Source: a virus. From it: 28,104 nt of DNA. Below are positions 4,271 through 28,042 of this stretch, piece after piece. The stretch spans positions 1 through 28,104 of the IMG/VR virus record IMGVR_UViG_3300022540_001107; one strand, given 5' to 3'. How positions within the stretch are numbered: position 1 is the first letter of the stretch; each line of letters opens with the position of its first letter. The notes beneath the pieces are model-generated. The model was not told the origin of the DNA and made no database searches. It saw only the letters and a program-made list of their open reading frames with translations. The position numbers and the translations under genes are program-made.

Positions 4271-5029
4271 ATGACTACTTTAGCTGCTGATACTCCCAGG
4301 GACTATGAACTGGGGGAAAGAAATGAATACCCGGTCATTGCCGCTGACATTATTTATGAAGGGTCCGCTGCTGGCCTGGTGATTGCGTCCGGCCATGCAA
4401 GACCGTTGACATCTGTGGATAAGTTTGTGGGATTTGCCGAGGCCAAGGCGGACAATTCCGCCGGCGCGGCCGCGGCCATCAACGTGCGCACCATCAAACG
4501 GGGCGCGATCCAGTTGTCCGTGACCGGTGCGGTAATTACCGATGTGGGGCAGCCTGTTTATGCCCAGGACGATAATGCGTTTTCGTTCCTGAAAACATCC
4601 GGCGTGTTTATTGGATTTATGCGGCGGTATGTGAGCGCCGGCGTTGCCATCGTGGAGTTTGATGTGGACGTGCTCAGAGATCCCCACGACGGAATGGTAG
4701 CTGAAACCCTGTCCGGAACCAAAACCCTGGATGCATTGGATACCGGGAAAGTCTTTTTTGTGGATACCGACGCATTTGCTATCACTTTGCCTGCGGTTGC
4801 AAAAATGGGATTTCGGATTGTAAATGGTTTGGGTTATGGTTTGTCGATTATCACAATTTCACCTAATGCTGCCGACAATATCCAGCCCACGGACCTTACG
4901 GCGGTGGATGACAAGGATCTGATCAATACCAAAGCCACTGCAAATCGCGGGGATATGGTCGATCTTGCGTACGGCGATGCAACCGGATGGGTCGCCGACA
5001 ACATGATCGGTACCTGGGCGAAGGAATAA
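4271..5029 (+). CDS. capsid decoration-like protein with an extra C-terminal beta domain
   Basis: A 252-aa protein placed between scaffold and major capsid, the position of lambda gpD. Residues 1-135 look like the DUF2190/gpD-type beta-tulip of head decoration proteins: 'VIAADIIYEGSAAGLV', a Gly/Ala-rich middle and 'GVFIGFMRRYVSAGVAIVEF'. Residues ~140-252 form a second domain starting 'SGTKTLDALDTGKVFFVDT' that resembles small beta domains found on phage fibres and head fibres. The extra domain may project from the capsid surface. A purine-rich 'TAGGAG' lies upstream. The family call is by pattern and position, not by search. Confidence 0.65.
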   Translation: MTTLAADTPRDYELGERNEYPVIAADIIYEGSAAGLVIASGHARPLTSVDKFVGFAEAKADNSAGAAAAINVRTIKRGAIQLSVTGAVITDVGQPVYAQDDNAFSFLKTSGVFIGFMRRYVSAGVAIVEFDVDVLRDPHDGMVAETLSGTKTLDALDTGKVFFVDTDAFAITLPAVAKMGFRIVNGLGYGLSIITISPNAADNIQPTDLTAVDDKDLINTKATANRGDMVDLAYGDATGWVADNMIGTWAKE

Positions 5030-5076
5030 CCAATAACTAATAATTAACAACTAATTATTAACGATTAATTATTAGA
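5030..5076. repeat. TTAATAA-type repeat, copy 1
   Basis: An A/T-only tract with units such as ACTAATAATTAACAA and TTAATTATTAG arranged as inverted arms. It lies immediately after the decoration gene stop and is followed by the AAGGAG ribosome-binding site of the major capsid gene. Family members recur at 8341, 11825, 21879, 26816 and 27762. Confidence 0.7.
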
Positions 5077-5093
5077 AAATAAGGAGACACAAA

Positions 5094-6395: not shown

Positions 6396-6681
6396 TTCTG
6401 ATCTGCCGGTATTTTTCAATATCGACGATTTCGGCGAAACCGTGAGCTATAACAGCGTGGATATCGAGGCTGTTGTGGATCACGGTTTCGAGGAAGATGC
6501 GAATTCTTTATTCGATTTTGTCGATATCGAGGTCAAGGCGTCGGACGTTGCCACGGTCACGTATCGAACCGACACCCTGGTGTATGGCGGCCTGACATGG
6601 CGGTATCCGAAAATTGTCAGCCAGGACGTGCATACTAAGAAGATCCGGTTTATTCGGAATCAAAAGCCAAAAATAAGATAG
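6373..6681 (+). CDS. gpFII-like head-tail attachment protein
   Basis: A 102-aa protein starting MTLKNQLSSDLPVFFNIDDF. 'DLPVFFNIDDFGETVSY' followed by 'AVVDHGFEEDA' and a C-terminal 'GGLTWRYPKIVSQD' fits the small beta-barrel head-tail attachment family that joins connector and tail (lambda gpFII-like). The ORF is open further upstream to 6280, but that extension lies inside the previous gene in another frame. The ATG at 6373 gives the expected length (lambda FII is 117 aa) and a short coupled overlap. The stop is followed directly by a CACAAAG-type repeat. Confidence 0.65.
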   Translation: MTLKNQLSSDLPVFFNIDDFGETVSYNSVDIEAVVDHGFEEDANSLFDFVDIEVKASDVATVTYRTDTLVYGGLTWRYPKIVSQDVHTKKIRFIRNQKPKIR

Positions 6682-6801
6682 TCACAAAGGCACAAAGACA
6701 CCAAGGGTGTGTTTTTGAAAAAGAAAAAAAATAGCCACAAAGGCACAAAGACACCAAGTTTTTTTTAATAAAATCTTTTAGTGCCTTGGTGCCTTGGTGG
6801 C
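6681..6801. repeat. CACAAAG-type repeat, copy 3 with a duplicated left arm
   Basis: The left arm (GTCACAAAGGCACAAAG...) occurs twice, at about 6681-6704 and 6733-6758, and the right arm (GTGCCTTGGTGCCTTGGTGG) once at 6781-6800. It fills the gap before the tail terminator-like gene. An apparent upstream start at 6781 would read through this repeat. Confidence 0.7.
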
Positions 6802-6810
6802 AACAAAATA

Positions 6811-7281
6811 ATGAATATCTACACTCTCATAAATAACCTGGTCACGGCGGTGGCGCAGGATGCCGAATTGTCCGCCTGGACACTGGCCAATTACGGGCAA
6901 AAGCATAATGTGTATCTGGATCAGGATGAGCGGGATCCGCCCGGGGAATCGGACGCTCCGGACGTGCAGTTTCATTCGCCGTCAAAATCCGCGGATGAGG
7001 AGAACCGGATCGTGGAATACGGCGTGGGTGTTTATATCGTGATTTATGATGCGGCCGTCGAGACCCGGGCAGAGGACAACGTGGAAGAATTCACGGCTAC
7101 TCAAAAGCTGGTGGAATTTATCAATCGGATTCTGACCGTGATCCGGGCGGCCAAGCCTGTTGATTTCGTCATGGGGTTTGACTGGATGACGGATACCATT
7201 ACCAGTTTTCCGAATTTCGAGGCGGATGTGGCCATCGGGTTTCGGGAACGGATGCTGATCGGGGATGATCCCTTGGATTGA
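6811..7281 (+). CDS. tail terminator/tail completion-like protein
   Basis: A 156-aa protein beginning MNIYTLINNLVTAVAQDAEL. The layout (N-terminal helix, 'WTLANYGQKHNVYLDQDERD', a central beta strand 'RIVEYGVGVYIVIYDA', a helix 'EFTATQKLVEFINRILTVI' and a closing strand) is that of small alpha/beta tail terminator proteins, which cap the tail tube and join it to the head. It sits immediately before the tail tube gene, where lambda U lies. The ORF is open upstream to 6781, but those codons are repeat sequence, so 6811 is preferred. There is no clear Shine-Dalgarno sequence. Confidence 0.6.
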   Translation: MNIYTLINNLVTAVAQDAELSAWTLANYGQKHNVYLDQDERDPPGESDAPDVQFHSPSKSADEENRIVEYGVGVYIVIYDAAVETRAEDNVEEFTATQKLVEFINRILTVIRAAKPVDFVMGFDWMTDTITSFPNFEADVAIGFRERMLIGDDPLD

Positions 7282-7382: not shown

Positions 7383-8342
7383 ATGACACAGCAACGCGGC
7401 GTAAATGCCGAGATTTTATTAGGTTTTGAAAACGCGGCATATGGCACGGCGGCTACGACCGGGTTTGTTATGCCGCTCAATTCCTGCGGCGTGGTGGGGG
7501 TGAAGAATCGCCAGGTGCCGGCCACGTTAACCGGGACCCGGAACACGGTTGTGCCTTTTGCGGGCAACAAAGACGTGAACGGGCCTATTGTAATTCCGCT
7601 GGATTCGGATGCCATGCCCTACTGGCTTGTCGCCATGTTCGGGGACCCGAGCACCACGGGCACGGATCCCTATGAACACGAATTCAAAGTGGCATCTTCC
7701 ATGCCCAGCTTTACCCTGGAAGAGGTGTTCGAGGATCTGACGGCCAATGTGTACCAGCGGTTCGTGGGATGTAAGATCGCAAGCCTGGGCATGACCTTTG
7801 GCGGTGACGGAGAGCTGATCGGCAATATCGGAGTCCTGGGCGCGGACATGAGCCATGAAACATCTGCTTTTGACGCGGCGCCCACAACCGTATCCCTGGA
7901 CCGGGTCAATAATTTCGATGCGGCCATATTGGAAGGTGGCGGGTCTTTGTCCAACGCCACCGAGCTGTCCATAAACCTGGATTTCGGGCTGGACCCAAAT
8001 TCGTTTGTGATCGGCAGCGGCGGGATCCGGGGAGATATCCCCGAGGGATTCGTGGCGGTCACCGGCAACATCAAAACCCTGTTCGAGGACAAAACCCTGT
8101 TAGATAAAGCCACGGGTGACACGGAAACGTCTCTGAAAATCACTGTAACGGACAGCGTCAACTCGATTCTGGAATTCGAGATCCAGGAGCTGCTTTACTC
8201 GGTGAACGGTGTGCCCATCGAGGGTCCCCAGGGGCTTATCGTGTCTCTGGATTTCGTGGGGTATTACACGGCCGGGTCCGAGGCGAGTAATATCGTGGCG
8301 AGAGTTACTAATAATGTGGTGTCTTACGATTTGATAACATAA
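7383..8342 (+). CDS. tail tube (major tail) protein
   Basis: A 319-aa protein starting MTQQRGVNAEILLGFENAAYG, the usual opening of the Phage_tube_2-type tail tube proteins that stack as hexameric rings to form the tail. 'EVFEDLTANVYQRFVGCKIASL' and 'LEFEIQELLYSVNGVPIEGPQ' near the C-terminus also fit. A GGAGGAAATTTAA leader gives a strong start. Next downstream come the G/GT chaperone genes, the standard siphophage order tube - G/GT - tape measure. Confidence 0.88.
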   Translation: MTQQRGVNAEILLGFENAAYGTAATTGFVMPLNSCGVVGVKNRQVPATLTGTRNTVVPFAGNKDVNGPIVIPLDSDAMPYWLVAMFGDPSTTGTDPYEHEFKVASSMPSFTLEEVFEDLTANVYQRFVGCKIASLGMTFGGDGELIGNIGVLGADMSHETSAFDAAPTTVSLDRVNNFDAAILEGGGSLSNATELSINLDFGLDPNSFVIGSGGIRGDIPEGFVAVTGNIKTLFEDKTLLDKATGDTETSLKITVTDSVNSILEFEIQELLYSVNGVPIEGPQGLIVSLDFVGYYTAGSEASNIVARVTNNVVSYDLIT

Positions 8343-8396
8343 TAATTAATAATTAATAATTAACAATTAATTATTAACCATTGATTATCAATTATT
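8341..8396. repeat. TTAATAA-type repeat, copy 2
   Basis: An A/T-only tract (AATAATTAATAATTAA units with an inverted TTAATTATTAACC half) lies between the tail tube stop and the chaperone G gene. It even contributes the tail tube TAA. Confidence 0.65.
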
Positions 8397-8417
8397 GTTT
8401 TGGACAGGGAGAAATAT

Positions 8418-8726
8418 ATGCGAGAAGTGCATGGCGTGAAAGTGCGGAGCTTGACCCGGAAGGAAGTCAAATCTCTTAAAGCGTGCGGGTTTTATTTGAG
8501 TTTCTATTCGCCGCCCATTCATGATCCGGATCTGGTGGACGAGGGCATCGAGAAAGTGCTGGAATTGTGTGTGCTGGACATGGATGCATTTGCGGCCCTG
8601 GAAGAGTCCGACCACATCAAAACCATGGAAGTATTTTCCGGGATCACAAAGGAAACTTACGGGGCAAGGGATGAGGAAAAAAACTTGCCGGCGTCTGGGA
8701 CTGGCTCTCAGACAAACGGCGGATAG
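8418..8726 (+). CDS. tail assembly chaperone, G-like, zero-frame product
   Basis: A 102-aa protein starting at the ATG at 8418, which has AGGGAG 6 nt upstream; an upstream TTG at 8400 is in frame but lies against the repeat. Position between tail tube and tape measure, size and overlap with a second frame match lambda G and G-T. These chaperones bind the tape measure protein and recruit tail tube subunits, and are absent from the mature virion. The zero-frame protein ends at TAG 8724-8726. A fraction of ribosomes is predicted to slip at 8678-8684 and make the GT fusion. Confidence 0.78.
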   Translation: MREVHGVKVRSLTRKEVKSLKACGFYLSFYSPPIHDPDLVDEGIEKVLELCVLDMDAFAALEESDHIKTMEVFSGITKETYGARDEEKNLPASGTGSQTNGG

Positions 8727-9070
8727 ACTACTGTAAGGTGTGCCAAGCTTCGGCAAAAAAGAAGGTAAGAAAATCAGAAGGTGAGAAGGTTGGAAGTATG
8801 TCGCTTTGTGCGACGTGCGAATACGGCGCCCATAACATGCCGGAGATCATGCCTGAAAACGTCGAGGTTCTGGAATTATGGGGTGATGTAAATACCCAGT
8901 GGCGGGCCGGCGGCATGGGCGTGATCGGGCTGGATTACCGGGAAGTGCGCACAAGAGCTGATGAGCTGGACATCGATATGTCGCCCTGTGTGTGGCGGAA
9001 GATTAAAATTTTGGAAACCAAAACTCTTGAGAAGCAGTATAAAAGCCCCGGCGAACCGGGGCGAGAATGA
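8418..9070 (+). CDS. tail assembly chaperone GT fusion (by -1 frameshift)
   Basis: Predicted 217-aa product: 89 codons of G, slip at 8684, then 128 codons in the -1 frame. The T-specific part starts LAGVWDWLSDKRRIDYCKVC and continues with two CxxC pairs (CKVC, CATC). It then reads 'PENVEVLELWGDVNTQWRAG' and 'GVIGLDYREV', a pattern typical of the DUF1799-type T region of siphophage chaperones. An AGAAGGTG-family repeat (8761-8796) is inserted in frame between the CxxC pairs and encodes a Lys/Ser/Glu stretch. An independent start at ATG 8798 (MSLCATCEYG), behind that purine-rich repeat, is possible. The stop TGA abuts the convergent minus-strand gene. Confidence 0.75.
8678..8713 (+). promoter_or_regulatory. 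programmed -1 ribosomal frameshift signal
   Basis: The heptamer A AAA AAC (8678-8684) is in the correct zero-frame phase (codons AAA 8679-8681, AAC 8682-8684). Eight nt downstream, GTCTGGGA (8693-8700) pairs with TCTCAGAC (8706-8713) across a 5-nt loop, an 8-bp stem with one G-U. Slipping back one base enters the frame that runs to 9070. The -1 frame is open from 8675, just before the slip site. Confidence 0.8.
8761..8796 (+). repeat. AGAAGGTG-type repeat inside the chaperone T coding region
   Basis: The tract reads GAAGGTAAGAAAATC then AGAAGGTGAGAAGGTTGGAA and belongs to the same family as the tract at 94-129. It is translated in frame as a basic/acidic low-complexity linker between two CxxC motifs and places a strong purine-rich tract before ATG 8798. 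Confidence 0.6.
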
Positions 9071-9077
9071 ATGAAAT

Positions 9078-9479
9078 TTAAATCATCAGAAATTTACGAA
9101 TTAACTGTAGGGCTGAATAGGACATTGAACGCCCTTGTTCCCAACCCTCGACAGTGCGCGCGGAAACAGCGGCGATTTCAGCCAGATCTTTCACCGTCCA
9201 ACCGAGCAGTTTTCGTAGTGGCTGGATATCATCCTGTTCATCGAGGCATAATTGATCATAATAAAACCCAGCCCGATATCCAGACTGTAAATCGCGGCGA
9301 TATTCACCATCGCGGCAATTTAAAAATTGTTCATGTTCCTCAACACCACCAAAATTTTCACCGTGATACAGACGGCGGATACCACGTTGATATCCTTGCC
9401 AAAAATCGGCACGGTTGGAATCTACACACTGGAATGTTTTTGCCATGCCTAATAATGATTGGAATTTTTGTTTTTTCAT
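9078..9479 (-). CDS. helix-turn-helix protein, second gene of minus-strand cassette 1 (Aca/antitoxin-like)
   Basis: A 133-aa protein with a C-terminal Xre-type helix-turn-helix (residues ~88-130: 'LRKLLGWTVKDLAEIAAVS', then 'ARTVEGWEQGRSMS'). The N-terminal domain carries 'RADFWQGYQRGIRRLYHGEN' and 'SGYRAGF', which I cannot assign. Its ATG overlaps the stop of the preceding 170-aa gene by one base (TAATG), so the two are translationally coupled. A perfect palindrome in the cassette promoter is its likely operator. Such second-gene HTH proteins are typical of autorepressors in acr-aca and toxin-antitoxin operons. The gene ends 8 nt from the chaperone stop, tail to tail. Confidence 0.75.
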   Translation of the reverse strand: MKKQKFQSLLGMAKTFQCVDSNRADFWQGYQRGIRRLYHGENFGGVEEHEQFLNCRDGEYRRDLQSGYRAGFYYDQLCLDEQDDIQPLRKLLGWTVKDLAEIAAVSARTVEGWEQGRSMSYSALQLIRKFLMI

Positions 9480-9991
9480 TATCCATCCTCCGTTGGCCCA
9501 AACCCCTGACCTATCCCACGGCGATAGGGTTCATGGCATTGATGAACAGGGGATTCATTCTCGTCATCATCGAAATAATAACGATCCCTCAAAACCTCGT
9601 CGGCCAATGTGATTTTAGTCGTTTGAGCCATGCGAACATTTCTATACGGAAATCCATTATATTTCATGTCTGCATCTACAGATTGGACGTGGTTGCCGTG
9701 GTCGTCATACATAGACCCTATGCCGTCGTGTGCGTATTCTCCCGAACTAACAACCCAAACACCCTCTATATCAATCCATGTTCCTCCGGTCGATATGCCA
9801 TCCTCATCCTGATAACTACCCACACATTGTTCAATAATGATTTTATCTCCGTTTTCCAGCCAGGGAACATCGATCTCAATAATGTCGATTTCAGCATGTC
9901 CCATTCTGTCGGCAAATTTTCGCAACGATTCATAATTATCGCTGTCCGCCAGGTTGGTTCCGGGCACGCTGTACATTTTTTTCATTCTCAT
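9479..9991 (-). CDS. acidic hypothetical protein, first gene of minus-strand cassette 1
   Basis: A 170-aa, Asp/Glu-rich soluble protein with no family I recognise. It has no signal peptide or membrane segment. Segments such as 'TWIDIEGVWVVSSGEYAHDG' and 'YDDHGNHVQSVDADMKYNG' suggest beta structure, and the C-terminus is acidic then Gly-rich. The ATG at 9991 has an AGGGGGT upstream and a sigma70-like promoter at 10062-10033. It is inserted against the direction of the tail operon and followed by a coupled HTH regulator. That context is what is used to nominate anti-CRISPR or other anti-defence genes; the function itself is unproven. A superinfection-exclusion or toxin role is also possible. 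Confidence 0.65.
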   Translation of the reverse strand: MRMKKMYSVPGTNLADSDNYESLRKFADRMGHAEIDIIEIDVPWLENGDKIIIEQCVGSYQDEDGISTGGTWIDIEGVWVVSSGEYAHDGIGSMYDDHGNHVQSVDADMKYNGFPYRNVRMAQTTKITLADEVLRDRYYFDDDENESPVHQCHEPYRRGIGQGFGPTEDG

Positions 9992-10032
9992 GATTTTTAC
10001 CCCCTATTGTTTGTGGTTTTCATTGTCTTATT

Positions 10033-10062
10033 ATTATATACGCAAATTGCGTGCCAAGACAA
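10033..10062 (-). promoter_or_regulatory. promoter of cassette 1 with palindromic operator in its spacer
   Basis: On the minus strand, a -35 TTGTCT (10062-10057) and a -10 TATAAT (10038-10033) are separated by 18 nt. Inside that spacer lies the perfect 13-nt palindrome ACGCAAATTGCGT (10052-10040). A repressor dimer there would block RNA polymerase directly. The predicted transcript starts near 10026, giving a leader of about 35 nt. Confidence 0.65.
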
Positions 10063-10150
10063 GGGGTTTGTGAAATATTTATTACCCATTGATATTATTG
10101 ATAAAAATGATTTTAACGAAAAATAAAAAATGCAAAAAACAAGGCAAAAA

Positions 10151-10257
10151 TGACAATATTTGTCATGATTGACAAAAAATGTCAATAAATAATAATAATC
10201 CTTAAATAACAATAACTTAAGCCTGTCATAGTGATTTGCGACTGACAGTTGTTGTCA
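10151..10257. promoter_or_regulatory. three TGACA-N5-TGTCA operators around a possible + strand promoter
   Basis: Three 15-nt sites fit TGACA-N5-TGTCA exactly: 10151-10165 (N5 ATATT), 10170-10184 (AAAAA) and 10243-10257 (GTTGT). The first two have centres 19 bp apart. The second overlaps a perfect -35 TTGACA (10169-10174), which has an AATAAT -10 (10191-10196) after a 16-nt spacer. The third lies downstream of the expected start site. This could drive the tail-completion and later genes under repressor control. The bases 9992-10280 hold no gene. Confidence 0.6.
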
Positions 10258-10280
10258 ATGAAAAGAGGATAATTTTAAAA

Positions 10281-10865
10281 ATGCTGAATGTAATTACCAA
10301 AGGATTCACCGGGCTGGAGCGGACGCTGAAGACCGAAAGCCGGCGCCAGGAAAAAGCTCTTAATACTGCGATCAAAGTTGAGGGCTTTCGTCTTATGCGG
10401 CTTTTGAAAAAGCAGATCCGGGACGGGACTCCGGGCGGGAAGAAATTTGACCCTTTGACTTATTTGTCCCGGGCCCGGGGAAGTAAACGGCTGAGACCTA
10501 ATAAACCGCTGCGGCGGTTGGCCCTGGCCGTGCGGTATTTTGTGAAGGATCAATCACCGTTTGATATGCGGATCGGCTGGGTAGGACCGCGAGTCTCCAA
10601 ATCGTGGAAGAGAATCGCCGAGCTCCAGCAGAAAGGATTTACCCGCGGGATGAAATCCGAGCGCCGGGAGTTTTTCAGACTCAAAGGCGCGGCCATGTCC
10701 AAACGATCCGTGGCCAGGAAATATATGTTTATCCGGAGAACTACGAAACGGTTCACAACTCCGGCAAGGCCCATTATGGATCCGTTCTGGAGAGCGGAAA
10801 AAGATCGGGCATGGAGAAATATTCAGAAAAATTATCGAAGGAAAATGCGTGGAGAACGAATTTAA
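10281..10865 (+). CDS. tail completion/minor tail-like protein (virion morphogenesis family look)
   Basis: A 194-aa, strongly basic protein. 'DGTPGGKKFDPLTYLSRARGS', then 'KPLRRLALAVRYFV', 'ELQQKGFT' and a closing 'TTPARPIMDPFWRA' match the layout of phage virion-morphogenesis/gpZ- or gpS-like tail completion proteins ('G.P.G..F.PL', then 'qQ.Gft', then 'PaRp..dPf'). The ATG at 10281 has AGAGGA upstream; an in-frame TTG at 10236 is less likely. The stop codon overlaps the stop of the convergent minus-strand HTH gene (10862-10865). It is isolated from other tail genes by two inserted minus-strand cassettes. Confidence 0.65.
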   Translation: MLNVITKGFTGLERTLKTESRRQEKALNTAIKVEGFRLMRLLKKQIRDGTPGGKKFDPLTYLSRARGSKRLRPNKPLRRLALAVRYFVKDQSPFDMRIGWVGPRVSKSWKRIAELQQKGFTRGMKSERREFFRLKGAAMSKRSVARKYMFIRRTTKRFTTPARPIMDPFWRAEKDRAWRNIQKNYRRKMRGERI

Positions 10866-11065
10866 AGGAAATCTTCTATTATGTTGCAATCTTTAATCAG
10901 GGCCAAAATTGTAACCAGACGAATTGTGGCATTGTTCGGTTCTCTTTCGCCTGTTTCCCAATGGTTCCAGGTTTGCCAGTGGACTCCGCAAATATCAGCC
11001 ATCCGCTGTTTGTTCACCCCTAATTTCTTGCGTACCGACTCAAAATATTTTGATTTTTTTTTCAT
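10862..11065 (-). CDS. small Xre-type HTH regulator, second gene of minus-strand cassette 2
   Basis: A 67-aa protein that is essentially one helix-turn-helix: 'VRKKLGVNKQRMADICGVHW' (11-30), then 'QTWNHWETGEREPNNATIRL' with the W-E-x-G signature of Xre/Cro-type domains. The ATG at 11065 follows the ligase stop by one base (TAA A ATG), so translation is probably coupled. An upstream in-frame start at 11113 would overlap the ligase. Likely role: autorepressor of the ligase operon, acting at the palindrome in the cassette promoter. Its terminal TAA overlaps that of the convergent tail gene. Confidence 0.75.
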   Translation of the reverse strand: MKKKSKYFESVRKKLGVNKQRMADICGVHWQTWNHWETGEREPNNATIRLVTILALIKDCNIIEDFL

Positions 11066-11066
11066 T

Positions 11067-11717
11067 TTAAAAATTAAGCGATGTTTCCGCCCGGATACCG
11101 TAAAACGAAGCAAATCTCGGGAGACCTCCGGACGTGAATCCGCTGAACTTGAACCTTACTATGGTCCCGATTTCAGGGGGATTGTTTTTTCTTTTATTGT
11201 CAAGGCCCCCGAGACCCATTTTTTTTCCGTTGCGGAGCCTCAAAATCAACGCGCCGATCTTTCCGACATTTTTACCCCGGCCCTTTTTGTGTTCGATGAC
11301 AATGCCTTCACTATCCTGGAGGGGCTTTCTCTTGTATTGTTCTCCATCGGGCGACGTGATTACAACGCCTTCCCCGCCTTTTTCGATAATGTCATTATAA
11401 AATTGGTCGAATTGTTCCATGGATTTTATTTCGGTCTTGAGGATTTTATCGAAAATCATAAATCTGATATCTTCCCACCGGCTATCTTCCCGGCGGGACA
11501 TGACAACGCCCCGGGCATAATCGAATTTGCCGCGCCCGGCCCACAGCTCACCGATCAATTTTTTTTTGGGCAGACAAGTTGTCCACCATGCCGGAACGTG
11601 GATGGTGTTATTATTTCTGGTTTTCAGGATACGACCGTCCCATATGCCCTGGACGCCATCAAATTTTTCGGTCATTGTCCAGCCGGCGACATTGTCTGTA
11701 TTGTTGTATTTTTCCAT
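11067..11717 (-). CDS. ATP-dependent DNA ligase, Lig E-like, without signal peptide
   Basis: A 216-aa minimal ATP-dependent DNA ligase that seals nicks through a ligase-AMP intermediate. Visible motifs: I 'EKFDGVQG' with nucleophile K18, III 'GELWAGRG' with E57, IIIa 'FMIFDK', IV 'EGVVI' with E116, V 'YKRKP' with K129/K131. An OB domain follows, ending 'NNPPEIGTIVRFKFSGFT' and 'GLPRFASFYGIR'. The overall pattern is that of Lig E, but the usual periplasmic signal peptide is absent, so it should act in the cytoplasm. Motif I has Gln23 where Arg is usual (KxDGxR). An in-frame TTG at 11726 precedes the ATG. The gene is encoded against the tail operon and followed by an HTH gene. Confidence 0.85.
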   Translation of the reverse strand: MEKYNNTDNVAGWTMTEKFDGVQGIWDGRILKTRNNNTIHVPAWWTTCLPKKKLIGELWAGRGKFDYARGVVMSRREDSRWEDIRFMIFDKILKTEIKSMEQFDQFYNDIIEKGGEGVVITSPDGEQYKRKPLQDSEGIVIEHKKGRGKNVGKIGALILRLRNGKKMGLGGLDNKRKNNPPEIGTIVRFKFSGFTSGGLPRFASFYGIRAETSLNF

Positions 11718-11761
11718 TATTATCAATCCATTGAATATATTTTAATTTTGTTGTTAATTAC

Positions 11762-11790
11762 AATATATATCCGCTGGATATGTTTGTCAA
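11762..11790 (-). promoter_or_regulatory. promoter of cassette 2 with palindromic operator in its spacer
   Basis: On the minus strand, a consensus -35 TTGACA (11790-11785), a 17-nt spacer and a -10 TATATT (11767-11762). The spacer contains the perfect inverted repeat ATATCC-GCT-GGATAT (11767-11781 on +), whose edge touches the -10 box. The layout matches the promoter of cassette 1, with a different operator sequence. Confidence 0.7.
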
Positions 11791-11824
11791 GTAAAAAATG
11801 CAAAAAAAATGAAAAAAATGAATT

Positions 11825-11915
11825 TAATAACTAATAACTAATAATTAACAATTAATAATTAACTAAAAACCATCAATTAACAATTAATTATTAACAATTG
11901 ATTATTAATCATTAA
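11825..11915. repeat. TTAATAA-type repeat, copy 3 (longest)
   Basis: About 90 nt of A/T heptad-like units (ACTAATAATTAACAATTAA and inverted TTAATTATTAACAA forms) run up to the tape measure ATG at 11917. No Shine-Dalgarno sequence remains between repeat and start codon. Confidence 0.7.
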
Positions 11916-11916
11916 T

Positions 11917-14064
11917 ATGGATCAAAAACTTCAAATAATATTATCCGCAAAAGACGTTACAAAGTCGGCATTCATGTCCGCCCAGGGCAGGGTCGCGGCG
12001 TTTACCAAGTCTGTTTTCAGCCTGCGGGGGGCCATGGTGGCCACTGCCGGCGCGGCAGCCATGGGGGCCATGATAAAAAAGTCCCTGGAGACCGCCGACG
12101 CCATAGGCAAGGCTGCTGACGTGATCGGGATCTCCACGGATGCGCTCCAGGAATACCGGCACGCGGCGCGCATTGCCGGGGTGTCCACCGAGCTTATGGA
12201 CAATTCCTTCAAGGCGTTTTCCAAACGCGTGGGTGAAGCCCGGAACGAGACCGGCGCCCTGGTCACCTTTCTGAATAAATTCGATGAGCAACTTTTAAAA
12301 AATATCCAAAGTGCCGGGTCTACGGAAGAGGCGCTGGACCTGCTCATGGACCGCATGGGCCGCACCGCCAAACAGACCGATCGGGCGGCATTGGCAGCGG
12401 CGGCATTTTCCAGGTCCGGCCTTGTTTTAACCAACATGGTCAAAGACGGCGCCGCCGGCCTTGAAAAGATGCGTCAGGAGGCCCGGGATTTAGGCATCGT
12501 CATGGACGAGCAGCTCATCCGCCAGAGCGAAAAAGCCAATGACGAAATCGAAAAACTCACCCGGGTGATCAAGGTTCAGTTCATGTCCGCAGCCGTGGGT
12601 CTGGCCCCGGAGATCGCCAAAGTGGCCGAACATACCACCAATTGGTGGAAGGCCAATCAGGATCTGGTCAAGACCGATGTGGCCGCTTTTGCCGACAAGA
12701 TCAAAGGCACGATCATCGAGATCAAAGCTGTTTACGATGCCCTGCCCGACGGCGTGATCGGTCCTGCAGGCGCCGGTCTGGTGGGCACTATTATTCTGGG
12801 TCCGGTGGGCGGGGTTACCGTGGGATTGATTGTCGCAGCGGCACAGAATCTTTCCAGGCTCAAAAAAGAACTGTCCGACATTTATGGATCCACCAAACGA
12901 TATCTGACCGATGAGCGCCTGTTTCGCGGCGCCGGAGTGACCGGAACCTGGGCAGAACCTTCCGCACCTGCGCCGGAACCCACACTGCCGCCGACTATCG
13001 ATACGAGCGCCGCGGATGCTGCCAAGAAAGAATATGAAAGGTTGATGAAAGATCTGGCCAAAGCCCAGGCCGAATTTCAAAAATCCTTAATCATCCCATC
13101 CGGTACAGGCGCCCTGGTTGAGGAGCAGCTTCGCCGGGGTGTGGGCCAATATATTATCGGATATGACCGCACCAAAGAAGACATCGAGAAAACCAAACAG
13201 GCATTCCAGGAGATGTACTCGGACTTGCGATTTCAATCCGAGGATTACTACCAATACCGCCTGGAGCAACTTCAGCAGCAGGCTGAAGATTACGTAAAAT
13301 ACACCGGGGACGCGGCCCTGGCTCATGAATGGCTCACCGAAAGAATAAAAGAACTTGACCAGGAGCGGATTGACGCCATGGCTGACACCTATGGCATCCT
13401 GGGTGAAATGAGCCAGCGCACCGCCGAGGCCATGGAGCAGGCATTTTCCGATTTCTTTTTTGATGTTTTTATGAACGACCTGAAAATATGGCAGGATTAT
13501 ATCAGGGCTTTAGGGCGGATGACGGCTCGTATATTAGCGGATCTTACGGGTCAAATGGTAAAAGATTGGATTGTGGGCTGGGCTAAAAAGCGACCCGCGA
13601 TGATTGCGGAAGGTGTTCAAGTCCAGGCGCTTACTCTTTTATATTACCAGCTTGCGGCAGCCAAAGCATTAGCCGGAGCCGCAGCCGGAGCGGGAGGCGG
13701 AGCGGGAGGCGGTGGAGCCGCGGCCGGTGGCGGCGGCGGACCCACTGGCGGTGTAGACATAGGGTTCGTGATGCACAAAGGCGGCACCGTGGGAACGGAT
13801 ACGCCGCCCGCACGAATCATGCCAGCGTCCCTGTTCGCCCACGCGCCCAGACTGCATCAAGGATTAGCATCGGATGAATTTCCGGCCATATTGCAAAAAG
13901 GTGAAATCGTGATCCCGCGAGGACAAGCCGCATACCCGGTGAAAAACTTAACGGTCATCAGCAATCTAACCATCGAGGGCGATATGAATCGGCGGGCGGC
14001 ATCGCTGCATTTAGCGGATGTTGAGGAAAAAGTGCGAAGTGTAATGAGAGAGGAAATGAGATAA
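11917..14064 (+). CDS. tail tape measure protein
   Basis: A 715-aa tail length-determining protein that fills the tail tube and is later ejected. The opening 'MDQKLQIILSAKDVTKSAFM' then an Ala-rich hydrophobic segment 'LRGAMVATAGAAAMGAMI' (about 36-53) is typical, as are 'DAIGKAADVIGIST' and long predicted helices (~50-250 and ~340-520). Hydrophobic stretches lie near 265-315. A Gly/Ala-rich linker (~585-612) precedes a C-terminal globular part with 'EIVIPRGQAAYPV'. At about 0.15 nm per residue the tail would be roughly 100-110 nm. An in-frame TGA just upstream fixes the earliest start. The stop overlaps the next ATG (TAATG). Confidence 0.9.
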   Translation: MDQKLQIILSAKDVTKSAFMSAQGRVAAFTKSVFSLRGAMVATAGAAAMGAMIKKSLETADAIGKAADVIGISTDALQEYRHAARIAGVSTELMDNSFKAFSKRVGEARNETGALVTFLNKFDEQLLKNIQSAGSTEEALDLLMDRMGRTAKQTDRAALAAAAFSRSGLVLTNMVKDGAAGLEKMRQEARDLGIVMDEQLIRQSEKANDEIEKLTRVIKVQFMSAAVGLAPEIAKVAEHTTNWWKANQDLVKTDVAAFADKIKGTIIEIKAVYDALPDGVIGPAGAGLVGTIILGPVGGVTVGLIVAAAQNLSRLKKELSDIYGSTKRYLTDERLFRGAGVTGTWAEPSAPAPEPTLPPTIDTSAADAAKKEYERLMKDLAKAQAEFQKSLIIPSGTGALVEEQLRRGVGQYIIGYDRTKEDIEKTKQAFQEMYSDLRFQSEDYYQYRLEQLQQQAEDYVKYTGDAALAHEWLTERIKELDQERIDAMADTYGILGEMSQRTAEAMEQAFSDFFFDVFMNDLKIWQDYIRALGRMTARILADLTGQMVKDWIVGWAKKRPAMIAEGVQVQALTLLYYQLAAAKALAGAAAGAGGGAGGGGAAAGGGGGPTGGVDIGFVMHKGGTVGTDTPPARIMPASLFAHAPRLHQGLASDEFPAILQKGEIVIPRGQAAYPVKNLTVISNLTIEGDMNRRAASLHLADVEEKVRSVMREEMR

Positions 14065-20825: not shown

Positions 20826-21025
20826 TGGCAATACGAATCACTCATGCAGTACGGAAAATTATTAGAGATGGAGACCCGGATGCACGAATCACTCATGCAG
20901 TACGGAAAGTTATTAGAGACGGTGATCCAGATGTACGAATTACACATGCTGTACGGAAAGTTATTAGGAATGTTGAAATAGAAATAACATCACAAACAAG
21001 TTCGATGTTTTTGGTGTTCCCGTAA
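20825..21025 (+). CDS. 66-aa protein made of three 17-residue tandem repeats
   Basis: Three copies of the 17-residue unit RITHAVRKVIRDGDPDA (the third degenerate) occupy residues 4 to ~50, followed by a short hydrophobic tail ending MFLVFP. The unit is visible in DNA as a 51-bp tandem repeat from about 20834 to 20975. It is coupled to the fibre gene by TAATG. Similar basic/acidic repeat micro-proteins accompany fibre genes in other phages, but I know of no function. Confidence 0.6.
   Translation: MAIRITHAVRKIIRDGDPDARITHAVRKVIRDGDPDVRITHAVRKVIRNVEIEITSQTSSMFLVFP
20834..20975 (+). repeat. 51-bp direct tandem repeat, nearly three copies
   Basis: The unit CGAATCACTCATGCAGTACG recurs with a 51-bp period (starting near 20833, 20884 and 20935) within the 66-aa gene. 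The first two copies differ at few positions, while the third is degraded after its first half. Confidence 0.75.
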
Positions 21026-21490: not shown

Positions 21491-21880
21491 ATGTCTGATG
21501 CAAGAAAACTCTTAATGACGAAATTGACGGAAGCCCCGGTAACGCTGGATCTGTCCGGCACTGGTAATACCACTCTTTACACCACACCCACTGGCAAAAT
21601 CATGATTCCCTTCGGGATTGGACTTGTGGCAGGTGCGGATTGCGGAGCCTCAATCATCACTGCGGGTAGAAGTACCGGGCTCGCTGATTTCCTGGGATCG
21701 CAAAATCTCGGCAATATCGATGCGTCAGGAGACATGGCCTGGCTCCAACCGATTCCCAACGCCACACCAGTAATACTTAAAACCTATGCGGCAGGCGTGA
21801 TTTTTCAAATTGCAGTGACCACGGCCCTGGGCGGCGCCACTAATTATGTGGATTTATTTGGGTGGCTTAAGGATGCATAA
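21491..21880 (+). CDS. hypothetical tail-associated beta protein
   Basis: A 129-aa protein starting MSDARKLLMTKLTEAPVTLD, preceded by AAGGAGG. It is beta-rich and hydrophobic in the middle ('GKIMIPFGIGLVAGADCGAS', 'LKTYAAGVIFQIAVTTALGG') but without a clear membrane helix. Base composition returns to the GC-richer style of the rest of the phage, so this gene marks the right edge of the AT-rich module. Function not recognised; possibly a fibre accessory or tip protein. Confidence 0.5.
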   Translation: MSDARKLLMTKLTEAPVTLDLSGTGNTTLYTTPTGKIMIPFGIGLVAGADCGASIITAGRSTGLADFLGSQNLGNIDASGDMAWLQPIPNATPVILKTYAAGVIFQIAVTTALGGATNYVDLFGWLKDA

Positions 21881-21921
21881 TTAATAATTAATAATCAATT
21901 GTTAATTGTTAATTATTAAAT
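21879..21921. repeat. TTAATAA-type repeat, copy 4
   Basis: AATTAATAATTAATAATC followed by the inverted AATTGTTAATTGTTAATTA half. It begins in the stop codon of the preceding gene and ends just before the cysteine-rich gene at 21931. Confidence 0.65.
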
Positions 21922-21930
21922 CGGGGTTTA

Positions 21931-22167
21931 ATGAAAAGTATTTGCAAGATATATGAAAATCGACCGAAGGTATGCAAAAACTTCCCAACCGGACCGGGAG
22001 AAATAAGGGAGTTTCCGTCCTGTACTTTTTGGTTTGATGAAAAGGGCGTGAGGCATGGAGAGTGCTCCGGCTGCGGGGAGTGCTGCCTGAGACCGTATAT
22101 ATATTTGCCCGAATTCGGAAGGAAATTTATGGAAGAGCAGTGCCCATACCTGATTGTTGATTTATGA
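21931..22167 (+). CDS. cysteine-rich metal-binding-like protein with permuted YkgJ motifs
   Basis: A 78-aa protein with eight cysteines. Residues 5-19 (CKIYENRPKVCKNFP) match the 'C.iY..RP..CR.fP' motif, and residues 45-52 (CSGCGECC) match the CxxCxxCC motif of the YkgJ/UPF0153 Zn/Fe-chelating family. In that family CxxCxxCC normally comes first; here the order is reversed. 'CPYL' (71-74) would normally follow the CxxCxxCC half. The last codons and stop lie in a CAATCAT-type repeat. It may be a genuine permuted phage family or the joint left by a tandem duplication. Role unknown; possibly metal-binding at the tail tip. Confidence 0.6.
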   Translation: MKSICKIYENRPKVCKNFPTGPGEIREFPSCTFWFDEKGVRHGECSGCGECCLRPYIYLPEFGRKFMEEQCPYLIVDL

Positions 22168-26408: not shown

Positions 26409-26818
26409 TGAATGAATATGAAATCAAGGAAATGATCCATCGTCATGAAGGATTCCGGCCTTATGTGTATTACGACACCCTGGGGTTTCCAACGGGCGGA
26501 TATGGCCATGCTTTTTTGGATCGAAGCCCCATCTCTCATAATGTGGCTGTTTTGTTGTTTGATGAGGATTTTGATCGGGTCAAAAAAGATTATGAAAAGT
26601 TGCGATTTGATTTGGATCCGGTGCGCCGGGCAGTGATCATCGATATGTTGTTTAATCTGGGATTGACCAGGTTCAGGGCTTTTCGACGGATGATCTATGC
26701 GTTGGAACACAAACAATATGACACGGCTGCCGATGAGATGCTGGACAGTAAATGGGCGTTACAGGTCAAAAGCCGGGCGTTCCGCCTGGCACAAATGATG
26801 AAGACCGGCGAGAAATAA
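26408..26818 (+). CDS. endolysin, GH24 (T4-type) lysozyme
   Basis: A 136-aa muramidase. The catalytic arrangement E14 (RHEGFRP), D23 (YYDTLG) and T29 (FPTGGYGH) has the 8- and 5-residue spacing of T4 lysozyme. 'RRAVIIDMLFNLGLTRFRAF' matches the conserved central helix and 'SKWALQVKSRAFRLAQMM' the C-terminal helix pair ('W...vg.Ra.rla.mm.tG'). There is no signal peptide or SAR segment, so release needs a holin; two candidates follow downstream. The start overlaps the previous stop (TAATG), and the stop runs into a TTAATAA-type repeat. Confidence 0.93.
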   Translation: MNEYEIKEMIHRHEGFRPYVYYDTLGFPTGGYGHAFLDRSPISHNVAVLLFDEDFDRVKKDYEKLRFDLDPVRRAVIIDMLFNLGLTRFRAFRRMIYALEHKQYDTAADEMLDSKWALQVKSRAFRLAQMMKTGEK

Positions 26819-26856
26819 TTAATAATCAATTGCTAATTATTAACTGATAATTAAAA
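26816..26856. repeat. TTAATAA-type repeat, copy 5
   Basis: TAATTAATAATCAATTGC followed by inverted TAATTATTAACTGATAATTA. It includes the lysozyme stop codon and is followed by AAAAGGGG, the ribosome-binding site of the exported protein gene. Confidence 0.65.
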
Positions 26857-27499: not shown

Positions 27500-27763
27500 A
27501 TGAGTAGCTGGCTATTTGCATTACAATTAATACCGTTAATCATTAATCTGATGACCACGATTGAAAAACTATTGGGACCTGGGACCGGTGTTCAGAAGAA
27601 AGCATTCGTAAAAGACGGTGTCAAGGCCGTGGTCAAGGAAATGTCCGCTGTTTCCACTGGCGGCCAGAAACAAACATGGGAAACCATCGATCTGTTTATG
27701 ACACCGATTTCAAGACTGATCGATGTTTTTTCAACATTGCTGTTTCCGAACGAGAAAAATTAA
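27500..27763 (+). CDS. small membrane-associated protein, holin/antiholin candidate
   Basis: An 87-aa protein with one N-terminal hydrophobic helix (~3-20, WLFALQLIPLIINLM) and a longer amphipathic remainder ending in 'ISRLIDVFSTLLFPNEKN'. AAAGGAGAATGAAAA precedes the ATG. It could be a holin partner or antiholin, or a phage protein of the kind with an N-terminal anchor often seen next to lysis genes. No family recognised with certainty. Confidence 0.5.
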   Translation: MSSWLFALQLIPLIINLMTTIEKLLGPGTGVQKKAFVKDGVKAVVKEMSAVSTGGQKQTWETIDLFMTPISRLIDVFSTLLFPNEKN

Positions 27764-27806
27764 TAACTAATAATTAACAATTAATTATTAACAATTAATT
27801 ATTAGT
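27762..27806. repeat. TTAATAA-type repeat, copy 6, with perfect 12-bp terminal inversion
   Basis: ACTAATAATTAA at the left end and TTAATTATTAGT at the right end are perfect inverses, with further units between. It separates two convergent genes, so a hairpin here could act in both directions. Confidence 0.7.
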
Positions 27807-28042
27807 CACAGCCCCATAGCCTTGCCGCATTTTATGCATTTCGTATTTTTGCTTTTATTCGGGGCCCCGCAAAAGGGGCATGCCGTATTGTCTAACAGCT
27901 CGATAATGGTGCCCAGCTTTTTATCCATGGCAAGGGTCTTGTTTCGAATCTGATACACATATACGGGCATTAAAAGCGCCATGAGTGCCAAAATTATTCC
28001 CAGGATCCAAACAATAACCATCGCCGCGCCGTAACTTTCCAT
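27806..28042 (-). CDS. small membrane protein with C-terminal zinc ribbon
   Basis: A 78-aa protein with one membrane helix (about 7-30), a short linker, and a zinc ribbon C55-x2-C58-x10-C69-x2-C72 (CPFCGAP ... CIKCGK). AGGAGG lies upstream on the minus strand. It faces the phage operon and may mark the start of host or lysogeny-side DNA, or be a phage gene of unknown role. I recognise no specific family. Confidence 0.65.
   Translation of the reverse strand: MESYGAAMVIVWILGIILALMALLMPVYVYQIRNKTLAMDKKLGTIIELLDNTACPFCGAPNKSKNTKCIKCGKAMGL

Follow-up and report, generated by a model that had tools for sequence, protein, structure and literature searches.

The virus record IMGVR_UViG_3300022540_001107, whose 28,104 bases make up the entire window analysed here, carries two minus-strand cassettes of two genes each (C1 and C2), which flank the tail-completion gene of a tailed phage. 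The best explanation overall, which we hold to be probable, is that they are two acquired, self-repressed accessory (moron) operons placed around that gene. A first-pass annotation had pointed to these cassettes and had read them as exchangeable modules in a general slot, each with its own repressor; the observation is confirmed and the interpretation is partly supported. The genes concerned are the following, by position and strand:

9479-9991, minus strand: EFF1, putative effector of C1, called as an open reading frame (ORF), an acidic orphan of 170 amino acids (isoelectric point 4.5, charge -18)
9078-9479, minus strand: HTH1, putative autorepressor of C1, 133 amino acids, with a conserved N-terminal domain and a C-terminal helix-turn-helix (HTH)
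10281-10865, plus strand: tail completion or neck protein (phrog_222), between C1 and C2
11067-11717, minus strand: Lig E-like homologue of ATP-dependent ligases in C2, 216 amino acids, without the leader, the motif-I arginine and the arginine-bearing loop before motif V
10862-11065, minus strand: HTH2, putative autorepressor of C2, 67 amino acids, of MqsA/Xre type by family searches

The coordinates bear out the two bicistrons (C1, 9991-9078; C2, 11717-10862). In both, the putative effector gene comes first and is coupled to an HTH gene, as indicated by the junctions TAATG in C1 and TAA-A-ATG in C2 and by the HTH matches. Both cassettes also end at a convergent structural gene: the stop codon of HTH1 lies 7 bp from that of the upstream gene, and the stop codon of HTH2 overlaps that of the completion gene. 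The sigma70-like promoter with a perfect palindrome between -35 and -10 was found for both operons, except that the palindrome of C2 touches the first base of the -10 element. The regulatory features are:

10033-10062, minus strand: promoter-like site of C1, TTGTCT (10062)-18-TATAAT (10033), 10/12 consensus
11762-11790, minus strand: promoter-like site of C2, TTGACA (11790)-17-TATATT (11762), 11/12 consensus
10040-10052, no strand: putative operator O1, ACGCAAATTGCGT, a perfect palindrome in the spacer of the C1 promoter
11767-11781, no strand: putative operator O2, ATATCC-GCT-GGATAT, a perfect palindrome overlapping the first base of the C2 -10 element
9045-9062, minus strand: predicted intrinsic terminator of C1, 7-bp GC stem, UUCG loop and TTTT (minimum free energy -15.9, z -3.47)

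Consensus promoter matches are common in the cassette region, since 23 sites were counted against 7.6 expected in shuffles; both cassette sites are among the five best. O1 and O2 are each the sole perfect palindrome with 6-bp arms (loop 0-6) in their upstream stretches (9992-10140 and 11718-11830). Palindromes with 6-bp arms, a loop of at most 3 and at least 2 GC pairs per arm occur in 0.7% of the 20-nt windows of the record, and a 6-bp-arm palindrome lies at the spacer in 3 of 70 promoter-like sites (at least 10/12) in 91 other viral loci. The corresponding count in the window is four of ten sites, namely C1, counted twice owing to overlapping promoter calls, C2, and an AT-only repeat at 8331. 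O1 is the only match to itself in the window at up to two mismatches, which is by itself not unusual (1.48 expected by chance). The predicted C1 terminator was not equalled in any of 200 shuffles; its letters double as the last codons of the upstream GT/DUF1799 frame, and it is missing from the relatives L002, L003 and L006 in the junction alignment. A consensus and folding search found no terminator just after HTH2, hence transcription of C2 may continue, in antisense, through to the completion gene.

Judged from the comparison of related sequences, it is nearly certain that both cassettes are accessory insertions. In the nucleotide comparison with L003, the closest relative, the junctions of both inserts are sharp:

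9045-10276, no strand: insert 1, cassette 1 with its upstream regulatory region; homology to L003 stops at 9044 and resumes at 10277
10867-11912, no strand: insert 2, cassette 2; homology to L003 stops at 10866 and resumes at 11913

The start of the first insert, earlier placed at 9071, is thus corrected to 9045. Insert 2 starts where the completion gene stops, and the stop codon of HTH2 uses bases there that are common to the relatives. The G+C content is 0.41 in insert 1 and 0.40 in insert 2, against 0.52 to 0.55 in the flanking genes. Slot 1 was defined as the stretch from the chaperone frames to the completion gene, and slot 2 as that from the completion gene to the tape measure. Three scans of viral contigs gave 11 other records showing slot 1, which represent eight lineages after L005 and L007 (1000/1000 bases), L019 and L020 (12,922/12,923) and L022 and L023 (14,947/14,951) had been merged; the records L024 and L025 do not reach the slots. 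Slot 1 measures 3 to 155 bases in all eight lineages versus 1,210 in the window, and slot 2 measures 2 to 88 bases in five of the seven lineages in which it is visible (L002, L003, L004, L016, L019/L020) versus 1,051 in the window. The cassettes are therefore absent wherever the gap can be seen, which is how the comparison proposed in the first-pass annotation turned out and which marks them as accessory inserts. The view that siphophages normally run from the chaperone directly to the tape measure did not hold, since a completion gene between the two is normal in this lineage; hence, only the cassettes are extra.

Phage morons have their own promoter and terminator and are absent from relatives. 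The cassettes resemble them in their consensus promoters, in the predicted terminator of C1, in their absence from relatives and in their insertion between genes that are adjacent there; they differ in their reverse orientation and in the dedicated putative repressor of each. The ligase homologue, HTH1 and EFF1 had no match in 13 related records, with the window itself matched as positive control; these records are fragments, so the cassette genes could lie elsewhere in those phages. A PF01381 match was found in one of the 13, in a 272-amino-acid protein at the far end of the L020 record, which does not match HTH1.

The general slot with exchangeable effectors fared less well, as slot 1 is empty in 8/8 lineages, and slot 2 holds other, plus-strand cargo in 2/7: 4,586 bases in L005 and 346 in L022/L023. 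Mostly plus-strand, the L005 cargo is collinear with a distal module of the window itself (about 22.8-26.0 kb), and hence is a block in another place; a plus-strand ORF of 77 amino acids is one reading of the L022 cargo. No match to HTH_3 was found in the records with other slot-2 cargo (L005, L022/L023). As a separate observation, the 4.6-kb stretch 6592-11177 of L005 includes genes like the window's methyltransferase-like gene and, weakly, its glycosyltransferase-like gene. A fixed cargo slot for HTH cassettes was considered and rejected, no second HTH cassette being present in either gap among the eight lineages. A fixed exchange slot is thus only partly supported, and the recurring unit appears to be the cassette and not the slot. 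These findings also bear on the proposal that the two gaps are merely hotspots which tolerate whatever enters, the shared design of two unrelated genes being coincidence. The same gaps in relatives do hold short inverted-repeat elements or other cargo, and the operators differ between the two HTH genes, whose partner genes are unrelated by family search. However, both reverse-strand inserts share gene order, coupling, a spacer palindrome and a convergent end, and the HTH1 design recurs with its operator in another phage, so that we regard coincidence as the least probable of the explanations weighed.

The strongest argument for self-repression comes from HTH1. In Pfam and NCBIfam, its matches are confined to general HTH models and to the HTH portion of the MqsA-family model TIGR03830; its score against HTH_3 was 22.3 bits in one scan and 24.1 in another (cut-off 23). 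The N-terminal part had no match in either library, and yet it holds all 15 columns that are invariant across five aligned HTH1 homologues, within the first 71 residues, with the pattern G..RG.RR...G..F....EH. Aligning HTH1 with plasmid homologues led to four viral records, L061 to L064. The homologue of L061 and L062 is 56% identical to HTH1 and that of L063 33%, and L064 matches in the HTH only. In the L061 operon, two genes of 66 and 262 amino acids precede that of the HTH1 homologue, after which comes a radical-SAM gene. Its promoter, TTGACA-17-TATTAT, holds ACGCAAATAGCGT inside the spacer, which is O1 with one mismatch in the same place, and the presumed recognition helices of HTH1 and the L061 homologue are near-identical (SARTVEGWEQGR and SHRTVEGWEQGR). 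At up to one mismatch, O1 has three matches in 967,730 bases of other loci (some overlapping), in L061, L062 and L101. The putative operator in HTH1 and its closest relatives can be written ACGCAAAT[T/A]GCGT, and the putative form ACGCAAATNGCGT is the one that would be expected in the promoter spacers of HTH1 relatives if HTH1 is a private repressor.

HTH1 and its putative operator are thus conserved together in a distant phage whose partner genes differ. EFF1 has no match in the record of L061 or in that of L063, and the only window genes that match the L061 stretch are HTH1 and the portal gene (28%). In both L061 and L063, the operon with the HTH1 homologue is oriented against nearby portal, terminase or ParB-type genes, and the orphan partner genes lie at:

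L063, 3620-3949
L061, 3040-4028

The 109-amino-acid partner in L063 is strongly acidic (isoelectric point 4.1, charge -20). None of the three partners (66 and 262 amino acids in L061, 109 in L063) has a Pfam family at E 0.1, and the 262- and 109-amino-acid proteins have no PHROG at E 0.001; they are candidates for host-interference proteins. Since HTH1 and its operator recur beside different partners, C1 looks like a member of a transferable, Aca-like autorepressed cassette family, and C2 may be so by analogy. Autorepression by HTH1 is, on this sequence evidence, quite likely. In genome contigs, HTH1 gave two matches confined to the HTH domain, and its alignment had no match in 398 genomes from the phylum to which the L012 genome (G015, Roseomonas) belongs, a phylum picked for convenience only in a search that had no positive control.

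The first-pass annotation had compared the cassettes with acr-aca operons, in which the predicted core promoter is reported always to contain one inverted repeat, and in which those Aca proteins that were assayed repressed their own promoters (PMC9410906). Aca2, with its HTH at the N-terminus and a dimerisation domain at the C-terminus, binds a repeat that overlaps promoter elements, and structural homologues of it occur in other contexts (PMC8434428); HTH1 differs in that its HTH is C-terminal, behind a domain without a Pfam match. The layout stood up: as in the operons of Aca2, Aca3, Aca10 and others, an effector gene precedes an HTH gene, an inverted repeat lies in the core promoter and the operon sits on a mobile element. 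C1 in particular has the acr-aca architecture. The assignment did not, as HTH1 belongs to no known Aca family by the libraries used, in which the other Aca families have no models by name. Its best PDB match is Aca2, at an E of only 0.035, and the L061 homologue scored 20.8 bits against Aca2_YdiL (cut-off 23.8). Further differences from acr-aca operons are that the cassettes hold no known anti-CRISPR (Acr) gene, that one effector is a ligase homologue and that the operons oppose the late genes.

The case for HTH2 is less direct. Its best Pfam match is the HTH part of MqsA at 29.3 bits (cut-off 30), its score against TIGR03830 is 31.6 bits (cut-off 61.8), and its matches to HTH Pfam models were below cut-off in both scans. 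A pattern scan found no relatives in viral contigs, and weak matches were seen in three phage records and six Serratia plasmids. A private repressor in each cassette is hence supported for C1, where the pair of HTH1 and operator recurs in L061/L062, but not for C2. Autorepression by HTH2, which is proposed by analogy, is somewhat favoured.

In toxin-antitoxin modules of the HigBA/MqsRA order, the toxin gene comes first, the HTH antitoxin second, and the operator is palindromic. The cassettes are like them in the position of the HTH partner, the palindromic operator and the autoregulation to be expected, and could on that account be such modules, stabilising the phage or guarding it against competitors. 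Gene order and promoter palindromes fit this proposal, as do the two sub-threshold matches of HTH2. It is nevertheless improbable, as C2 begins with a gene for a ligase homologue and not for a known toxin, EFF1 is acidic and without a family match, the N-terminal part of HTH1 corresponds to no Pfam or NCBIfam model and HTH2 resembles the HTH part of MqsA only. Searches of Pfam, PHROGs and NCBIfam gave no toxin family for EFF1 or for the ligase-like protein.

The first gene of C2 encodes a protein with the OB domain PF14743 (63.1 bits, cut-off 28). The catalytic domain PF01068 scored 17.6 bits (cut-off 26.2) over residues 94-125 only, though the motifs nonetheless align, and PRK09125 of NCBIfam scored 198.5 bits, just under its cut-off of 200. 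The protein is 37-39% identical to four bacterial homologues in alignment. Its AlphaFold model has a predicted local distance difference test (pLDDT) of 91 and a predicted template-modelling score (pTM) of 0.74; among the structures listed, Lig E 6gdr has the highest query template-modelling score (TM-score, 0.86), and 8u6x and 4d05 have lower E-values. Like Lig E, the protein combines a nucleotidyltransferase with an OB fold, and motifs I, Ia, III, IIIa, IV and V are recognisable in its 216 amino acids. Lig E has a predicted leader (PMC8455567). The C2 protein begins MEKYNNTD, directly at the core, and is shorter, lacks the motif-I arginine and the loop before motif V, and has an HTH partner. 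The predicted fold is thus like that of Lig E, and by the features examined the protein is not a member of Lig E.

For comparison, 121 phage relatives were found, of which 80 were kept; ten loci without a complete in-frame ORF were dropped, leaving 70. Bacterial homologues matched in 39 of 299 genomes. From the first start codon the C2 protein has 219 amino acids, versus 244-424 in the 70 complete phage homologues. The residue comparison covered 33 of the 70 phage ORFs and four of 30 fetched bacterial loci. The kept residues are K18, D20, G21, E57, D90, E116, K129 and K131. The motif-I arginine, present in 33/33 phage and 4/4 bacterial homologues, is replaced by glutamine (Q23); 22-38 residues are missing between motifs IIIa and IV; and eight residues are deleted before motif V, where one column holds arginine in 30/33 phage and 4/4 bacterial homologues. 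The absence of the leader, the motif-I arginine and the arginine-bearing loop makes ligase activity doubtful, as judged from the alignment. Downstream neighbours were available for 63 of the 70 phage homologues, and 27 of these were left out, including 23 ORFs of 152-153 amino acids taken for look-alikes by length. Among the 36 downstream neighbours scanned with Pfam, none was an HTH gene and ten were terminase small subunits.

An alternative proposal is that C2 is ordinary replication or repair cargo with an active, compact nick-sealing ligase, the HTH proteins being incidental regulators of unrelated targets. The catalytic lysine, the acidic residues and the motif-V lysines are kept, the model is close to Lig E 6gdr, and homologues occur on other phage contigs. 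Against this stand the glutamine in place of an arginine found in all 37 others, the deleted stretch whose arginine column is kept in 34/37 others, the residues missing between motifs IIIa and IV, and the lack of HTH coupling in the 36 neighbours; in C1, the operator found with the HTH1 homologue speaks against an incidental regulator. We give this proposal as little weight as that of toxin-antitoxin modules. The pairing of a ligase gene with an HTH gene, which had been called new, is indeed absent from the 36 neighbours, but the protein may not be a working ligase. No report was found of a ligase under Aca-like control in the literature searched, whose coverage was limited and left subscription journals mostly outside; the same literature gave none of a phage-encoded ligase as counter-defence, which is a weak negative for that reason.

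Several points weigh against two self-repressed moron operons. L061 and L062 are near-identical (7,374/7,384 bases), so the operator comparison is one independent case; the L061 phage is distant and not wholly unrelated, its portal being 28% identical to that of the window, and the ACGCAAATAGCGT palindrome is imperfect. O1 is absent from L063, where a different palindrome, TAGCCC..GGGCTA, lies upstream of the 109-amino-acid first gene with no promoter-like match around it, and from the plasmid homologues L008-L010. No HTH2 relative with a matching operator was found. EFF1 has no relatives in the phage and plasmid collections, the viral-contig pattern scan or 15 viral records, and its single-sequence structure model is useless (pLDDT 35). 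The cassette genes have a G+C content of 0.40-0.47, the whole record 0.465 and the non-coding stretch 10063-10276 0.25, so the low values of the inserts are partly due to AT-rich non-coding DNA. PADLOC, which covers defence and not anti-defence proteins, gave weak HTH matches only. Lastly, the cassettes have no link to a host or to CRISPR. Separately, a known defence family was considered for EFF1 and rejected, as no family was found in Pfam, PHROGs, NCBIfam or PADLOC and no relative was found.

Inside insert 1, upstream of the completion gene, lie three exact TGACA-N5-TGTCA sites around a plus-strand promoter-like site, a newly noticed feature:

10151-10165, no strand: site 1, exact match
10170-10184, no strand: site 2, overlapping the -35 element of the plus-strand promoter-like site
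10243-10257, no strand: site 3, exact match
10169-10196, plus strand: promoter-like site TTGACA-16-AATAAT ahead of the completion gene, 11/12 consensus

Only 0.02 such sites are expected in the whole window, and three were seen in none of 100 shuffles. Such sites are absent from 141 other loci, the three matching loci being stretches of the window itself. The sites may be the remnant of a lost divergent gene or, alternatively, a regulated promoter that restores expression of the tail genes beyond the insert.

The remaining genes of the window are those of a tailed phage, with portal, head protease, major head protein, tail tube, DUF1799 frame, tail completion and tape measure. Relatives of the completion protein were found neither in genome contigs by alignment search nor, as protein, in the phage collection. 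The heptamer A AAA AAC at 8678-8684 is a likely programmed -1 frameshift site leading from the tail chaperone frame to the DUF1799 (GT) frame, which is open from 8678 to 9070, and it stands in the same context in all nine sequences compared. The chaperone and DUF1799 frames with this site are in what we take to be the lambda G/GT arrangement. Gaps between late genes contain short repeat elements, many of which have inverted arms and are built of units of about 7 bases:

542-618, 971-1063 and 6669-6813
5027-5088, 8340-8404, 11821-11935, 21871-21946, 26814-26850 and 27743-27818

Relatives carry such elements in slot 1 or 2: CCACAAAGGCAC in L003 and L006, GTAGGGCAGGC in L002, GGTTCAAAGG or its complement in L005, and CAAATAACAAAT in L016 and L020. 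Three head-to-tail copies of a 51-base repeat lie at 20833-20985, in or beside coding DNA.

Returning to the two accessory operons, their history and action may be pictured as follows. Two moron operons would have entered the gaps that flank the completion gene, reading against late transcription and each driven by a sigma70-type promoter. The palindrome at each promoter spacer is probably bound by the HTH protein of the second gene, which would silence its operon once an early burst is over, in the manner of Aca proteins at acr operons, with expression early or in the prophage phase. EFF1 could then act on DNA-based defences of the host by mimicry or inhibition, and the Lig E-like protein by nick binding or sealing. 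Such an anti-defence role of the effectors is a tentative proposal. A bolder combination, unlikely to hold in full, is that HTH1 founds a new family of Aca-like autorepressors, with a G..RG.RR-YHGE-FGT-EH N-terminal domain and a C-terminal HTH, controlling interchangeable anti-defence genes in reverse-strand cassettes among the late genes of distantly related phages, and that the leaderless Lig E derivative, without its motif-I arginine, acts against DNA-nicking defences as a nick-binding decoy or a modified nick-sealer. If HTH1 is a private repressor with changing partners, it would serve as a bait for new host-interference genes. If the proposal for C2 is true, this ligase homologue, under control of the same type and with the loss of conserved residues that contact nucleotide and DNA, would be an example of a repair enzyme recruited by a phage as an effector under regulation.

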